Below are positions 1,513 to 7,580 of a DNA stretch of 64,000 bases, one piece after another. The number at the start of each line of letters is the position of its first letter. Positions within the stretch are counted from its first letter, which is position 1. The DNA is from Pseudomonadota bacterium (GTDB lineage: Bacteria > Pseudomonadota > Gammaproteobacteria > Steroidobacterales > MnTg04): assembly GCA_022572885.1 (NCBI GenBank), contig JACZVC010000009.1, forward strand, positions 1-64,000. The letters run 5' to 3'. The notes under the pieces are model-generated. The model did not search any database. It worked only from the letters and a program-made list of their open reading frames with translations, and was not told the DNA's origin. The position numbers and the translations under genes are program-made.

Positions 1513-2109
1513 TTAGCGAAACGGCGGCCCGCCAATCCAGGACACCAGGGACAGGCGCGTTCCCTTGGTCACCGGTCGCACACGATGCGCCAGGTATGAG
1601 GGAAACGCGATCAGCGAACCACGGCTGCGTGGAGCGAGTTCGTCTGTCGCCGAAAGAAATTCGAGCTCGCCGCCTTCATAATCCGCCGGATCGCTCAACT
1701 GCACGCTGAGGCTCAGTTTTCTGCTTGAATAAGTGCCAGGTCCGAGGTCGATATGCCAGTCATAGTGGCCACCCGGCTCGTAGCTTGCCACCTGTATACC
1801 GTCATAGAACCCGTTTAGTTCAAAGCCATATCCGCGGTTCAGTTTCATCAGTGCGTCTTCCAGAAAATCGAAAAGCCAGGCGGATTCCTCCGATGGCCAG
1901 ATAAAGCGCACGGTCGAGTTCCTGCCTTTATCGGTTTTTCGCTCGGCCCCCGTTTTTCCTTCCAGCTTTGGAGAATTCTCCGCGAGCGCGATCGCGCTGT
2001 CGCATATATCGGGGCTCATCAGGCTCTCGACGAACGCAACCTGCGCCGCGGCGTCGTTGGTACGCCGGCTAATATGGCTTTTCAAAAGGCGGGATGATTG
2101 CATGGTCAT
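1513..2109 (-). CDS. Fe(II)/2-oxoglutarate-dependent oxygenase (prolyl 4-hydroxylase-like)
   Basis: The 198-residue protein has the signature of the 2OG-Fe(II) oxygenase superfamily. The metal ligands are visible as His119-x-Asp121 (YDWHID) and a distal His175 (LAHRV), with Arg185 ten residues later to bind the 2-oxoglutarate carboxylate. Such enzymes couple 2OG decarboxylation to hydroxylation of a protein or small-molecule substrate, which cannot be named here. Its ATG overlaps the TGA of the upstream pspF gene in an ATGA arrangement, so the two are translationally coupled. A second in-frame ATG lies two codons in. A link of this oxygenase to the phage shock regulator is inference from context. 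Confidence 0.85.
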   Translation of the reverse strand: MTMQSSRLLKSHISRRTNDAAAQVAFVESLMSPDICDSAIALAENSPKLEGKTGAERKTDKGRNSTVRFIWPSEESAWLFDFLEDALMKLNRGYGFELNGFYDGIQVASYEPGGHYDWHIDLGPGTYSSRKLSLSVQLSDPADYEGGELEFLSATDELAPRSRGSLIAFPSYLAHRVRPVTKGTRLSLVSWIGGPPFR

Positions 2110-3176
2110 CGTCTCTTGCGGCCCAGTTCATCCTGTAAGTCGTGCTTGCGCAGCAAAGCGCGCAGCTGGTGATAGCTCAGACCCAGTAATTTAGCAGCTT
2201 CAGACTGCCTGAATCTCGCTTTTTTCATCGCTTCGCGAACCAGGTGGATTTCCATTTTGCCGATCGCTCCTTTCATGTCCAGCGGAAAGTGGATTTTCCT
2301 CGTTGACGGTTCGAGCATATCAATGGTGCCTGGCGGCACGTGTTTTGCACTGAGAATCCGTCGTCCCGGGATAGGCATTCGGCCCGGAATATAGGGTGAG
2401 TCGAATGGATCGAAGACGATGTTGCTCACTGGTTTGTCGGGTCGTTCTGACCGGTAAACAGAGCGCTCAACCGTGTGTTTCAATTCGCGTACATTGCCGG
2501 GCCACGCATGCCTCAGCAGTAACGATGCGGCGCGGTGTGAGAATCCCGGGAAAAAGTCCCGTTTCAGCTCACCGACAATGTTGATTGCGAAGTGATTCGC
2601 CAGTGGCAGGATGTCCTCTTCCCTGGCGCGCAACGGCGGCACCGCAATGACATCGAAAGCCAGCCTGTCGAGCAGGTCCGGGCGAAACCGGTTTTCCCGC
2701 ACCAGCCTGGGAAGATCCTCGTTACTGGCCCCGACTATGCGGATATCGACATAAATGGTTTCGGTGCCGCCTACTCTCTCAAACTCCCCGTATTCGATAA
2801 CCCGCAATATTTTCTCCTGCATGCGCAGCGATATCGTTGACAATTCGTCCAGAAAAAGCGTTCCTGTATCGGATCGTTCAAAGCAGCCGAAATGGGTGCG
2901 AACCGCGCCGGTGAACGAGCCGGCCTCGTGGCCGAACAATTCACTTTCCAGGATGCTTTCCGTCAGTGCCGCGCAGTTCAGTTTGATCAGCGGTTTCTCC
3001 CAGCGACCAGACAGGTAATGCAGGCGGCTGGCAATCAATTCCTTGCCTGTACCCCGTTCACCGATAACCAGGACCGGCTTGCTCAGGGTTGCGGCGCGCG
3101 ACACATGCTCCTGCATTTCCAGGAAAGCCGGGGCTTCGCCGATAATTGGCGTGGTTTCGGGTCGGTGGACAGGCAT
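2106..3176 (-). CDS. pspF: Phage shock operon activator, sigma-54 enhancer-binding protein
   Basis: This 356-residue AAA+ protein has no N-terminal receiver or sensory domain: the central domain starts almost at once, as in PspF. Walker A is GERGTGKE (39-46), the sigma-54 contact loop is GSFTGA (86-91, the usual GAFTGA with Ser), and Walker B is LFLDE (107-111). A Fis-type helix-turn-helix occupies the last 50 residues (SEAAKLLGLSYHQLRALLRKH). It is divergent from pspA, the classical arrangement, and a -24/-12 promoter precedes pspA. In known systems PspA binds PspF to keep it off until envelope stress. The downstream oxygenase gene overlaps its stop codon. Confidence 0.93.
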   Translation of the reverse strand: MPVHRPETTPIIGEAPAFLEMQEHVSRAATLSKPVLVIGERGTGKELIASRLHYLSGRWEKPLIKLNCAALTESILESELFGHEAGSFTGAVRTHFGCFERSDTGTLFLDELSTISLRMQEKILRVIEYGEFERVGGTETIYVDIRIVGASNEDLPRLVRENRFRPDLLDRLAFDVIAVPPLRAREEDILPLANHFAINIVGELKRDFFPGFSHRAASLLLRHAWPGNVRELKHTVERSVYRSERPDKPVSNIVFDPFDSPYIPGRMPIPGRRILSAKHVPPGTIDMLEPSTRKIHFPLDMKGAIGKMEIHLVREAMKKARFRQSEAAKLLGLSYHQLRALLRKHDLQDELGRKRR

Positions 3177-3234: not shown

Positions 3235-3309
3235 TATAGATTATTTATTGATGACTATATTTTACTATTTCTATTTAATAAACAGTATGTTGCGGGAATT
3301 CAGGCAATC

Positions 3310-3325
3310 TGGCACGAATTTCGCA
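3310..3325 (+). promoter_or_regulatory. Sigma-54 promoter of the psp operon
   Basis: TGGCACGAATTTCGCA contains GG at 3311-3312 and GC at 3323-3324, exactly ten bases apart, matching the -24/-12 sigma-54 consensus. It lies 57 bp upstream of the pspA ATG and downstream of the candidate PspF sites, with a long AT-rich stretch between that could bend (IHF-like). Confidence 0.9.
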
Positions 3326-3381: not shown

Positions 3382-4056
3382 ATGGGTATTTTTTCGAGAT
3401 TCAGTGACATAGTGAATTCCAACATCAACTCCATCCTGGACAAGGCGGAGGATCCGGAAAAACTGGTTCGCCTGATGGTCCAGGAGATGGAAGACACGCT
3501 GGTCGAAGTTCGCTCCGCCGCCGCGCGGGCCATTGCCGACAAAAAGGGGCTGAATCGTAAATTGGCGGCGTTGGAAAAAGAGGAAAAAGAGTGGCAGGGC
3601 AAGGCGGAACTGGCGGTCAGCAAAAACAGGGACGATCTTGCCAAGGCGGCGCTGGCGGAAAAATCGCGAGCGGCTGAAGCGGTTGCGGATTTACGCCAGC
3701 ACTATGAAATCATCGAGAATGGGCTGGCAAAGCTCAATGACGATATCGCACGCCTTGAAGTAAAGATTGCAGACGCCAAGAACCGGCAAAAATCGCTGTT
3801 GTTGCGACATCGTACGGCCGGAAACCGGCTTGAGCTAAGAAAGAAAATCCATGATTACAAGATCGAGGACGCCCTGGTTCGTTTCGAGCAATTCGAACGG
3901 AAAATGGAAAATCTGGAAGGACAAGTGGACTCATTCGATCTGGGGTTACAAAAGAATCTAAATCGAGAGCTTGCCAACCTGGAGAACTCAGAGGCAGTGG
4001 AAAAGGAATTGGCCGCACTGAAAAAGAAAATACGGCAGGTGGAAAAAACAGCCTGA
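3382..4056 (+). CDS. pspA: Phage shock protein A (PspA/IM30 family)
   Basis: The 224-residue protein starts MGIFSRFSDIVNSNINSILDKAEDPEKLVRLMVQ-type sequence, the canonical PspA amphipathic membrane-binding helix, followed by long coiled-coil helices rich in Glu, Lys and Ala to the end (ELAALKKKIRQVEKTA). PspA is an ESCRT-III-like protein that oligomerises on stressed inner membrane and, when free, inhibits PspF. Length and composition fit the family (about 222 residues). It is the first gene of a sigma-54-driven operon, 31 bp ahead of pspB. Confidence 0.95.
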   Translation: MGIFSRFSDIVNSNINSILDKAEDPEKLVRLMVQEMEDTLVEVRSAAARAIADKKGLNRKLAALEKEEKEWQGKAELAVSKNRDDLAKAALAEKSRAAEAVADLRQHYEIIENGLAKLNDDIARLEVKIADAKNRQKSLLLRHRTAGNRLELRKKIHDYKIEDALVRFEQFERKMENLEGQVDSFDLGLQKNLNRELANLENSEAVEKELAALKKKIRQVEKTA

Positions 4057-4087: not shown

Positions 4088-4306
4088 ATGGTTGAATTAT
4101 TGGCAATGATAGCCCTGCTGGTGATTGCGCCGCTGGCAATCATTCTGCACTACGTTACCAAGTGGAAGCAGACCGGGGCTCTCAGCGGGGCGGATGAAAA
4201 ACTTTTGCAGGACTTGTGGGATATTTCGCATCGAATGGAGAGCCGCGTCAATGCGCTGGAGACCATTCTGGACGAGGAAATTCCTGACTGGAGGTCAAGA
4301 GCGTGA
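4088..4306 (+). CDS. pspB: Phage shock protein B
   Basis: This 72-residue protein has one N-terminal transmembrane helix (MVELLAMIALLVIAPLAIILHYVTKW) and a cytoplasmic helix with a leucine/heptad pattern (MESRVNALETILDEEIPDWR), as in PspB. PspB works with PspC in the inner membrane to sense stress and draw PspA away from PspF. Its C-terminal 'R...LE.I' helix resembles helices at the ends of three later products of this operon. The stop overlaps a possible GTG start of pspC at 4303, but that start is less likely than the ATG at 4339. Confidence 0.92.
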   Translation: MVELLAMIALLVIAPLAIILHYVTKWKQTGALSGADEKLLQDLWDISHRMESRVNALETILDEEIPDWRSRA

Positions 4307-4338
4307 CAACAGGGCAATGGTTTCGAGGAGGAACACAG

Positions 4339-4584
4339 ATGCTTTACAGGGATCGGGAAAACGGCATGATCCTCGGGGTCTGCGCCGGAATTGCCGAAAG
4401 GTTTGAATTTAACGTACTCGGCGTGCGCATACTCGCGGTGGTCGCAATGGTCTGCCTGGCTTTCTGGCCGGTCGTTGTGGCCTACGTGGCTTTCGGCTTG
4501 TTGCTCCGCGACCGCCCGCTTAATTATTACGGGCCGGACTATGAGCATCGATTCTGGCGTTCCAGCGATCGAGAAACGGAGTGA
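4339..4584 (+). CDS. pspC: Phage shock protein C, short copy
   Basis: The protein has 81 residues from the ATG at 4339, which sits 7 nt behind a strong Shine-Dalgarno (AGGAGG, 4326-4331); a GTG at 4303 is in frame but lacks one. It is a PspC domain: LYRDRENGMILGVCAGIAERF, then a transmembrane helix (AVVAMVCLAFWPVVVAYVAFGLLL). It ends soon after the membrane segment and lacks the long cytosolic or periplasmic tail of standard PspC. The second, longer PspC gene follows at once, so the operon carries tandem PspC domains as separate proteins. Confidence 0.88.
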   Translation: MLYRDRENGMILGVCAGIAERFEFNVLGVRILAVVAMVCLAFWPVVVAYVAFGLLLRDRPLNYYGPDYEHRFWRSSDRETE

Positions 4585-4586
4585 GC

Positions 4587-4982
4587 ATGACTGATTATCA
4601 GGAGTTTCCAACACGCCGGTTTTTTCGTGATCCAAAGCACGGGATTTTTGGCGGGGTCTGCGCAGGTATTGCCAATTACTTCGGCTTTGACGTGACTGCG
4701 GTCAGGTTGGTTACATTCTTCAGCATGTTGTTTTTCCAGATGCTGATCCTGGTGTATATTCTTCTTGTATTCATTGTTCCACGGCAGCCAAACACGCCGG
4801 AAAGAACCGTGGCGGAACGAGCTTTCGATCGGGCAATGAGGCGTGCACCGAAAGCCACGTTTGGGGAGGTGCGCTACCGTTTTCGCGATCTTGAGACGCG
4901 CCTGCAGAAAATGGAGCGCTATGTGACTTCAAAGCGTTTTCAGCTCGATCGGGAATTTGAGAATTTAAAAAACCAGGAGTAA
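4587..4982 (+). CDS. pspC: Phage shock protein C, long copy with coiled-coil tail
   Basis: Starting at ATG 4587 (a GTG two codons earlier is also in frame) this is a 131-residue PspC protein. The PspC core reads FRDPKHGIFGGVCAGIANYFG, with a transmembrane segment (FFSMLFFQMLILVYILLVFIVP) and then a charged helical tail of about 60 residues ending RLQKMERYVTSKRFQLDREF. That tail matches the C-terminal helices of the two small proteins encoded next (pattern R..LE...T.R...LR.EF..L). It resembles E. coli PspC in size better than the preceding copy does. The stop codon is part of a hairpin at 4974-4990. Confidence 0.88.
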   Translation: MTDYQEFPTRRFFRDPKHGIFGGVCAGIANYFGFDVTAVRLVTFFSMLFFQMLILVYILLVFIVPRQPNTPERTVAERAFDRAMRRAPKATFGEVRYRFRDLETRLQKMERYVTSKRFQLDREFENLKNQE

Positions 4983-4990
4983 GACTCCTG
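4974..4990 (+). promoter_or_regulatory. Hairpin covering a stop codon, Shine-Dalgarno and start
   Basis: CAGGAGT-AAG-ACTCCTG is a perfect 7-bp inverted repeat with a 3-nt loop. It contains the AGGAG ribosome-binding sequence, the TAA stop of the long pspC and the first base of the GTG start of the next gene. In mRNA it would hide the binding site until a ribosome finishing pspC opens it, which would couple translation of the next gene to pspC. The role is inferred. Confidence 0.55.
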
Positions 4991-5229
4991 TGGGGGCGTT
5001 TATGATCGGTGATTTATTTCTGATAGCCTTGATCTTGTGTTGTTTTCTTTGCCTTCTTGGGCTGAGGCAGTGGCAAAGACCGGCAGGATCATCCATCGGC
5101 GGGCAAAACAGGGGCAATTCCACCTTGGCGGCGACCGCGGCTGACCTGAAACAACGCGTGGAAGTACTCGAGCGTATTGCCACGGATCGCAAGACGGCGT
5201 TGCGCGAGAAATTCCTCGATCTTGAGTAA
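4990..5229 (+). CDS. Small membrane/coiled-coil protein of the psp operon (PspB-like 1)
   Basis: Seventy-nine residues from GTG 4990, or 75 from ATG 5002 (a GGGGGCG run lies just before the latter). One transmembrane helix (LFLIALILCCFLCLLGL) is followed by a soluble linker and a C-terminal helix with KQRVEVLERIATDRKTALR and ending FLDLE. The layout equals that of PspB, and the end matches both the next protein and the tail of the long PspC. No assigned family is recognised. Its position in the sigma-54 operon suggests a role in stress sensing, perhaps as a variant partner for one of the two PspC proteins. Confidence 0.75.
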   Translation: MGAFMIGDLFLIALILCCFLCLLGLRQWQRPAGSSIGGQNRGNSTLAATAADLKQRVEVLERIATDRKTALREKFLDLE

Positions 5230-5256
5230 AAGACTTCAGGTTGGGGCTGATGCCGC

Positions 5257-5535
5257 ATGAGCAAATACGAATTTATACTGTCTCTCGTATGCATTCTCGC
5301 TGTCGCCTGGGTTTTCAAGGAGTTCATAATCTCGCGGAGGCTGGGAAAAGGTTATCGCAGCAAGGGCCGTCATCGCGGAAACGCTGAGGCTGAGTTGCAG
5401 GCCGAGAACGATGCGGCAGCGGAGAAACTGCAAGCGATGGAAGAGCGTATCAAGGTGCTGGAAAAAATCATTACCGATCGCGAGGCGAATCTGCGCGACG
5501 AGTTTCGGGATTTGGAAAATAACGGCGATCGATAA
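5257..5535 (+). CDS. Small membrane/coiled-coil protein of the psp operon (PspB-like 2)
   Basis: This 92-residue protein repeats the design of its upstream neighbour: a transmembrane helix (FILSLVCILAVAWVFKEFII), a basic linker (RRLGKGYRSKGRHRG) and a long charged helix with MEERIKVLEKIITDREANLR and EFRDLE near the end. The two share the signature R(V/I).VLE.I.TDR...LR..F.DLE and are probably paralogues from a duplication. It is the last gene of the psp operon; the next gene is convergent. Function is unknown, and membrane tethering with coiled-coil contacts is inferred. Confidence 0.78.
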   Translation: MSKYEFILSLVCILAVAWVFKEFIISRRLGKGYRSKGRHRGNAEAELQAENDAAAEKLQAMEERIKVLEKIITDREANLRDEFRDLENNGDR

Positions 5536-5599: not shown

Positions 5600-7450
5600 T
5601 TATTCGCAGACCGGGCCATCTACTGATGGTTTGCACCAGCGTGGCCAGCCGTTCTCATTCCAGTAGTCCGGCAGCTTGATTTCCTCGAGCAAAATTTCGA
5701 AATCCGGCAAAGCCCTGAGATAGGCATACCTTGGGAACCACAGATTGGCGATCATCGCAGGAGCATCGCTGACCAGTGTCTGCATTAATTCGAGGGCCCT
5801 TGGCGACTTGATAATCAACAGCGAACGGACTGGAGCGCGGCCCCCGGCAGTGCCACTGGCGTGCAATGCCCATTCTGTGATCTCGCTTTCGAGCTGAGCG
5901 TCGCCACGCGCGGCGTAGGCAAGACTGGCCGACCGGAAGGGCTCGATTCCGGAAAATCGATGCCAGTCATCGATTATTGCCGCCGCGGATACCAGGTCGC
6001 CGCGCATTTCATAAATTTCGCTCAGCACCGCCGATGCAAACATGTGGTCAAGATCAAGGCCCCGGTTCGCATACCGCTCAGCTTCCTCAATTTCTCCATT
6101 CAGCAACAGTGCCGCCGCTAGCCAGCTATTGTTGACGCCGGTACCCGGCGCCAGGTCCACAGCTTTGCGCAGGGCGCGCTCCGCCTTATCCGGGTAGCCG
6201 ACTTCCAGCAACTGGATGCCTTTCCATAAAAACGCCGAAGGCTCGCCCGGGTTCAGCGCAATCGCCAGATCGAAATATTCCATAGCATCGGACCACCGAT
6301 AATCCTGCGCCGCGACCAAGCCAAGCACGGCGATTGGTTCCGCCTGGCCCGGTTTCAGTTCCAGAGATTTCTCAGCGGCTTCACGGGCGTCGATCAGCGA
6401 CTGCCGCCGATTCATCGGCAAATAGTCCGGGTAGACTACGTACGTGGCAGCCAGGCCGGACCAGGCCGCCGCGTATTCCAGATCGGTTCGAACGACCTTT
6501 TTGAACCGGGCCAATGCCTTCTCCAGGTCCGCACCGCGCTGATTCAAAAAATGCCTCCCCTGCAAATACAACTCATAGGTTTCTACACTGCCTGATGGCG
6601 GCCGGTTGTCGGCGACAGCGGCTGCGGCGTTGCCGACATCTCCGACCGAGAGCGTTTCCTGAATCGCGCGCACGATTTTTTGCGCGATCTCGTCCTGTAC
6701 CGCAAAAATGTCCTCGAGGTTCCGGTCAAAGGTTTCTGACCATAGGTGTGTATCGGTAGCTACATCGATGAGTTGAGCGGTGATACGCACCCGGTCGCCG
6801 GCCTTGCGAACACTGCCTTCCAGAATATGGCTCACGCCCAGTGCCGCGGCAATCTCGGCAATATCCATGTTCCGGCCCTTGAAGGCGAACGAGGACGTCC
6901 GTGACGGGACCCTGAGCCCCTTGATCTGGACCAGGACATTGAGGAGCTCTTCGGATATGCCATCGCTGAAATACTCGTTGTCCCGGTCGCTGCTCATATT
7001 GACAAAGGGAATAACCGCTACCGATACAAGGTCGCTTTTGGCAGGGGGAACTTCGGAAACTGCCTGGATTTCTTCAATGCGCTCCGCCGGGGTCATTGAA
7101 ATTCTGGGCTCGAGAAAGAAATAAACCACCGCAACGAGCAGCAAAGCAATGATGACAAAATCGATCCGCCGGCCGGTCTGGGGCGTAATCGACTGACTAC
7201 GATCAACATCCGCTTCACGTTTCAGCCCGTCCGGGGTCAATTCGAATGCCCACGCGAGAATCAATGCAAAAGGAAAGCCTATCAACAGCAGTATCAGTAC
7301 CATTGAGCCGGCCCATTCGGGGATCTTCAGCAGCGGAAATGCGACATCGATAATCTGGATCGCCAGCCAGCCAACAATCAGGTAGACAGTTGCGACCCTG
7401 ACGACATTGCGCCGGCTCAGTTCGCCATAGAAATTTTTGATCAACGACAC
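5600..7450 (-). CDS. Membrane-anchored TolB-like/TPR protein
   Basis: The likely start is GTG 7450 (preceded by AGGTGG), giving 616 residues; an in-frame ATG at 7507 is further out. The N-terminus has a short cytoplasmic piece (IKNFYGELSRRNVVRVATVYL), two transmembrane helices, and a third near residue 115. Then comes a TolB/FlgO-like alpha/beta domain (SVAVIPFVNMSSDRDNEYFS, later ILEGSVRKAGDRVRITAQLI and LWSETFDRNLEDIFAVQDEI) and several tetratricopeptide repeats to the C-terminus. Such proteins are common in gammaproteobacteria, often attached to DNA-binding or cyclase domains, which are missing here. A role as an envelope scaffold or sensor is plausible but unproven. Confidence 0.8.
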   Translation of the reverse strand: MSLIKNFYGELSRRNVVRVATVYLIVGWLAIQIIDVAFPLLKIPEWAGSMVLILLLIGFPFALILAWAFELTPDGLKREADVDRSQSITPQTGRRIDFVIIALLLVAVVYFFLEPRISMTPAERIEEIQAVSEVPPAKSDLVSVAVIPFVNMSSDRDNEYFSDGISEELLNVLVQIKGLRVPSRTSSFAFKGRNMDIAEIAAALGVSHILEGSVRKAGDRVRITAQLIDVATDTHLWSETFDRNLEDIFAVQDEIAQKIVRAIQETLSVGDVGNAAAAVADNRPPSGSVETYELYLQGRHFLNQRGADLEKALARFKKVVRTDLEYAAAWSGLAATYVVYPDYLPMNRRQSLIDAREAAEKSLELKPGQAEPIAVLGLVAAQDYRWSDAMEYFDLAIALNPGEPSAFLWKGIQLLEVGYPDKAERALRKAVDLAPGTGVNNSWLAAALLLNGEIEEAERYANRGLDLDHMFASAVLSEIYEMRGDLVSAAAIIDDWHRFSGIEPFRSASLAYAARGDAQLESEITEWALHASGTAGGRAPVRSLLIIKSPRALELMQTLVSDAPAMIANLWFPRYAYLRALPDFEILLEEIKLPDYWNENGWPRWCKPSVDGPVCE

Positions 7451-7580
7451 AATGCAAGACCACCTTTGGCTCAGGCAAAGACTAGCACTTGATCCAGCAC
7501 GCTGCACTGCCGTCAGCTATCAAAAAGAGCGCTGTGCGGTATTATCAGCGAAGGGGGCCTGATTTTTCACGGAGTTGGCG

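Follow-up and report, generated by a model that had tools for sequence, protein, structure and literature searches.

It has long been asked, almost only in enterobacteria, how PspB and PspC signal membrane damage to PspA. In E. coli, the leucine zipper of PspC is required for binding PspA and not for binding PspB, and overproduction of PspC40-119 induces psp in the absence of PspB without lowering the proton-motive force (PMC3068692). The PspC protein of Yersinia has a cytoplasmic C-terminal domain to which PspA binds when the system is on (PMC5596341); if PspB is missing, Yersinia PspC is unstable and toxic (PMC3467454). A 2024 paper gives one clause each to "PspB duplicates" and to a "divergent C-terminal PspB fused to PspC" (PMC11237479).

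A psp operon with two additional small genes

We found a classical pspF-pspABC locus in the window, the whole 64,000-nucleotide stretch of DNA that was analyzed. It has a divergent PspF, a sigma-54 promoter motif, and PspA, PspB and PspC2 that score above curated cut-offs (Table 1). A sequence-only reading of this DNA had proposed pspA-pspB-pspC-pspC followed by two small genes. Open reading frames and Pfam and NCBIfam profile matches confirmed this order, with pspF divergent from pspA-pspB-pspC1-pspC2-s1-s2 and all six operon reading frames at the coordinates in Table 1. The genes from pspA to s2 are tightly spaced; after s2 comes a gene of the opposite strand (5600-7507). The promoter motif recurs in the window's order: sites scoring at least 15.9 were present upstream of 70 of 76 pspA genes, and the maximum in shuffled sequence was 15.0.

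Table 1. Features of the psp locus in the window.
Feature	Position	Strand	Description and evidence
pspF	2106..3176	-	sigma-54 activator, divergent; TIGR02974 476 bits (curated cut-off 443.55)
sigma-54 (-24/-12) promoter motif	3309..3325	+	CTGGCACGAATTTCGCA; 73 bases 5' of pspA; score 17.4/18.9
pspA	3382..4056	+	TIGR02977 285.6 bits, above cut-off
pspB	4088..4306	+	canonical; PF06667 80 bits; TIGR02976 73.5 bits (cut-off 51.7)
pspC1	4339..4584	+	short PspC without coiled-coil tail; PF04024 55.8 bits
pspC2	4587..4982	+	full-length PspC; TIGR02978 119.8 bits (cut-off 104)
PspC2 tail motif	4899..4967	+	R105-L127, RLQKMERYVTSKRFQLDREFENL, common to S proteins; hhalign
s1	5002..5229	+	S family, 75 aa, one membrane helix and tail (motif 5155-5223); S profile 63.6 bits; alternative GTG start at 4990
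s2	5257..5535	+	S family, 92 aa, tail motif 5446-5514; S profile 89 bits

The first of the two PspC proteins resembles the tail-less PspC1-68 and, among curated PspC models, passes only Pfam PF04024. PspC1 is a conserved orthologous group with members at 69 of the order's loci, and it carries the C-terminal signature KPL.Y.G...E..FWR.

On the minus strand, a 2OG-Fe(II) oxygenase gene (1513-2109) shares four bases with the end of pspF, and is therefore probably co-expressed with pspF. The oxygenase gene is also beside pspF in two relatives of the same genus (84% identity), and is not beside pspF in six genomes from other genera.

Homology of the small proteins with PspB and with the tail of PspC

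We found that s1 and s2 are genuine genes of one conserved family, here called S, that has no curated name. None of 29 S proteins tested reached the Pfam PspB cut-off. The best of them, s2, scored 24.5 bits in PF06667 (cut-off 25.6), and s1 scored 16.4. With TIGR02976, s1 and s2 scored 21.0 and 20.4 bits, respectively (cut-off 51.7), and no other family claimed S proteins in Pfam and NCBIfam searches. Profiles built for S and PspB sorted all 145 proteins with a margin of at least 31 bits. The S consensus is LEeRi.VLErIvTd...dL..ef..L, with the R, L, E, I, T and L positions invariant in the alignment. Standard annotation thus misses a recurrent Psp component. The suggestion that the small proteins belong to no named family holds at curated cut-offs, but PMC11237479 had earlier made mention of duplicates of PspB and of a divergent PspB located C-terminally in PspC.

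The tail pattern described in the sequence-only reading is present, with one spacing corrected (R...LE rather than R..LE). Copies of the motif are RVEVLERIATDRKTALREKFLDLE in s1, RIKVLEKIITDREANLRDEFRDLE in s2, RLQKMERYVTSKRFQLDREFENL in PspC2 and RVNALETILDEE in PspB. In profile-profile comparisons (hhalign), S matched the entire tail of PspC2 (probability 96.6%, E 5.1e-10, 43 columns). S also matched PspB across the membrane helix and tail (E 6e-9, 65 columns). A direct profile-profile comparison of PspB with the PspC tail gave no significant match. S therefore bridges the two, since it matches both while they do not match each other. The alignment of s2 to the TIGR02978 PspC model covers positions 39-121 of 121. 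PF04024 did not match s1 or s2, and the comparison of S with the PspC domain profile was not significant. By these sequence comparisons, S is a PspB body joined to a PspC-type tail, and the tail motif that in PspC belongs to the PspA-binding region appears in S by homology (E 5e-10). Of the earlier proposal, the profiles and the distribution described below support a conserved membrane/coiled-coil module with kinship to both PspB and the tail of PspC.

The AF2 model of s2 has a membrane helix (3-29) and a long tail helix (43-89), with a mean pLDDT of 77. In PspC2 the modeled helices are 24-32, 36-49, 52-63, 75-86, 88-114 and 116-130, the last two forming the tail. Both single-chain models are simple helices of moderate confidence, and sequence searches found no relatives of PspB or PspC in the PDB. 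The membrane helix has positive charges on its C-terminal side in 76 of 77 S proteins of the order and in 251 of 252 other S proteins, as it does in PspB. Based on this positive-inside signal, the S tail is predicted to be cytoplasmic (N-out/C-in). A single membrane helix with a cytoplasmic C-terminus, as in PspB, is thus predicted for s1 and s2 from hydropathy and charge, and for s2 from the AF2 model as well.

Distribution, linkage to PspA and partners

Of 79 psp loci from the window's order, 68 have a gene homologous to s1 and s2 after their last pspC. The small genes might have been peculiar to this operon, a possibility that the sequence-only reading had raised against itself; they are conserved in related ones. 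Among the 79 loci, the combination of PspB, two PspC and one S was found in 43, two PspC and one S without PspB in 12, and PspB, two PspC and two S in 10. The others had PspB with one PspC and no S (7 loci), PspB with two PspC and no S (4 loci, one of them at a contig end), or PspB with one PspC and one S (3 loci).

S is not confined to this order. A scan of named genomes and operon maps showed that in Sphingomonadales, including Erythrobacter, Qipengyuania, Sphingomonas, Novosphingobium, Sphingobium and other genera, pspA-pspB-pspC is followed by tandem arrays of 2-8 S genes. Among 66 Sphingomonadales loci with one PspC, there were two S copies in 6, three in 6, four in 24, five in 18, six in 9, seven in 2 and eight in 1; these loci were chosen by their S match, so that the counts describe the arrays and not their frequency. 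In the Sphingomonadales arrays L182-L260, S genes lie approximately 300 bases apart behind pspC and the copies within an array have diverged, which suggests distinct roles or an old duplication.

Other arrangements were also found. In Sedimenticola (L248) and in L172 the order is pspA-S-pspB-pspC, and in other gammaproteobacteria, among them Ferrimonas and Alteromonas, S genes are located away from psp. No S matches were found among plasmid records. In 5 of 19 upstream regions of unlinked S genes there was a sigma-54 score of 16.2-16.7 (equaled in 0-5 of 150 shuffles), and others had none; these scores are only suggestive of sigma-54 promoters for unlinked S genes. In the alteromonads L252, L267 and L288, the unlinked S gene lies between tadA and a Kef-type antiporter gene, and some relatives have a sigma-54-like site upstream.

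We found S only in genomes with PspA, which makes it probable that S is a regular component of the phage-shock response that has been overlooked. Of 319 genomes sampled evenly across the phylum, 31 had S and 47 had PspA. Each of the 31 genomes with S had PspA, including those in which S is far from pspA, and 16 genomes had PspA and no S. In a sample of the class, 10 of 369 genomes had S; nine passed the PspA search and the tenth had a PspA fragment at a contig end. Counting only the nine, the association was strong (Fisher p 1.6e-13); tests of S with PspA ignore shared ancestry, and the S genomes span several families in two classes.

S also persists where PspB has been lost. In twelve genomes of one genus, no gene anywhere in the genome exceeded the PspB cut-off and S was kept. 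The retained genes are not relocated pspB genes, as they scored 97-110 bits with the S profile and 15-25 bits with the PspB profile. Among the PspB-less loci (L092, L098, L110, L116, L132 and others), most have an enlarged linker, rich in Arg and Lys, ahead of the PspC2 tail. Mutual rescue of PspB and S was considered and rejected: the two were never both absent (12 of the 79 order loci lacked PspB and 11 lacked S), and this was not significant (p 0.14).

We compared the co-evolution of the Psp proteins using distance matrices from which the PspA signal was removed, the only correction made for these short proteins. The residual correlation was highest for PspB and PspC2, a known pair (0.44 with the PspC2 domain and 0.40 with the tail). 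Values for S came close to those of this pair, at 0.37 with the PspC2 domain, 0.24 with the PspC2 tail and 0.28 with PspB. There was no residual co-evolution of S with PspC1 (r = -0.06).

These results bear on whether S is simply a divergent, spare PspB that binds, stabilizes and silences PspC without contacting PspA, its copies tuning the threshold of the sensor. The PspB-like membrane helix and topology, the residual co-evolution of S with PspC2, and the genus with S and without PspB would all fit. Since Yersinia PspC becomes toxic and unstable when PspB is missing (PMC3467454), something may take the place of PspB in the PspB-less genus. However, the S tail matches the entire PspC tail and PspB stops half-way, ending in P.WR; the S and PspB profiles are well separated; and most loci with S also keep a canonical PspB. 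We regard a spare PspB as a serious possibility that is nevertheless rather doubtful.

A role for S as PspC1's own partner or as the tail that PspC1 lacks, one half of a split second PspC forming a larger or second sensor, is improbable. PspC1 does lack exactly the tail that S carries, and among intact loci of the order S was present in 65 of 68 with PspC1 and in 3 of 10 without it (Fisher p 5e-6, uncorrected for relatedness). However, within the order this association depends on two families, f6 and f15. S is found beside a single PspC in families f6, f82, f141 and f146 and in the Sphingomonadales arrays, which have no PspC1, and PspC1 is found without S in f15 and L177. The single-PspC arrays and the lack of residual correlation of S with PspC1 argue against S having been built for a second PspC. 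The small genes had been tied to tandem pspC and to a sensor enlarged by the second PspC. Neither is supported: S is found with a single PspC and away from psp, some tandem-PspC loci have no S, and S lacks with PspC1 the co-evolution that it has with PspC2 and PspB. We reject S as an obligate companion of tandem pspC.

The two S genes in the window differ in constraint: the conserved orthologue is s2, with s1 an additional, looser copy. Against three relatives, dN/dS was approximately 0.08-0.16 for s2, within or slightly above the range of other psp genes, and approximately 0.27-0.35 for s1. In the closest relative, G009 (C28:9076-9211), s1 is broken by a deletion with a change of frame, and s2 is intact. 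The idea that the small genes are functionless, decaying duplicates draws on the faster evolution and disruption of s1, for which alone it is possible, but it is very improbable overall, being contradicted by the strong purifying selection that s2 is under and by an S family that is conserved in both Alpha- and Gammaproteobacteria, has R, L, E and T positions that do not vary and, in the phylum sample, always occurs with PspA.

A possible docking role and comparison with known Psp components

Our preferred reading, held tentatively and with the balance of evidence near even, is that S supplies the PspB-PspC complex with additional PspC-type, membrane-anchored helices on which PspA can dock. 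During stress, the PspF/sigma-54 operon would produce many copies of S together with PspA, PspB and PspC. The membrane helix of S would bring it into the PspB-PspC2 complex, and the S tails, anchored there, would add docking helices to keep PspA at the membrane. PspA held there would leave PspF free, a positive feedback, and S would concentrate PspA where PspA repairs the membrane. S may also be able to replace PspB as a partner of PspC. We infer PspA binding, membership of the PspB-PspC complex and the direction of regulation from the relationships described above.

This reading draws on the homology, the predicted cytoplasmic tail, the occurrence with PspA even of unlinked S genes, the residual co-evolution with PspC2 and PspB, the twelve genomes that kept S without PspB, and the conserved sigma-54 promoter motif. 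Arrays of 2-8 copies fit a dosage role for S. Because s2 aligns to the stretch of the PspC model that corresponds to PspC40-119, S looks like PspC40-119 made as a separate protein. If S were exactly like PspC40-119, its basal expression might lock the response on, and a gate, probably PspB, must therefore be assumed. Two further points count against the docking model. Psp systems of the enterobacterial type work without S, as in the 16 genomes with PspA and no S, and the S tail has TD or TE where PspC has TS, so that PspA binding may not be conserved. A bolder form, in which S is a natural PspC40-119, a distinct Psp family that docks PspA in trans, with copy number setting the gain and with the potential to make PspB dispensable, is possible, although we lean against it.

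S isolates the PspC tail on its own anchor, reaches eight copies in Sphingomonadales and persists in genomes that have lost PspB. Its variants are a natural separation-of-function set for asking which segment PspA binds and what effect copy number has.

The PspB duplicates and fusion of PMC11237479 very probably represent the same relationship as S. The accessible part of that text does not contain a separate family, arrays, unlinked copies, a co-occurrence test or PspB loss. In the literature searched, we found no description of a separate family, of its arrays and unlinked copies, of its restriction to genomes with PspA, or of S kept after PspB was lost.

PspG and PspD are, like S, small accessory membrane proteins of the Psp response, and neither appeared as a match to S proteins in Pfam and NCBIfam searches. 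In E. coli and Yersinia, pspG is unlinked and under sigma-54 control, and some S genes may be likewise. S resembles PspB (PF06667, TIGR02976) in several features: approximately 70-90 amino acids, an N-terminal membrane helix, N-out/C-in topology, a cytoplasmic helix with R...LE.I, a place in the same operon, and detectable homology. In contrast to PspB, whose tail ends in D.E.P.WR, the S tail runs on as T(D/E/S)...dL..e(f/i)..L, and S genes are placed after pspC or are unlinked, often in several copies. With the PspC tail (TIGR02978 ~39-121; E. coli PspC40-119), S shares the same motif over the entire length; unlike PspC, it consists of a single membrane helix, its own linker and that tail, without the PspC domain.
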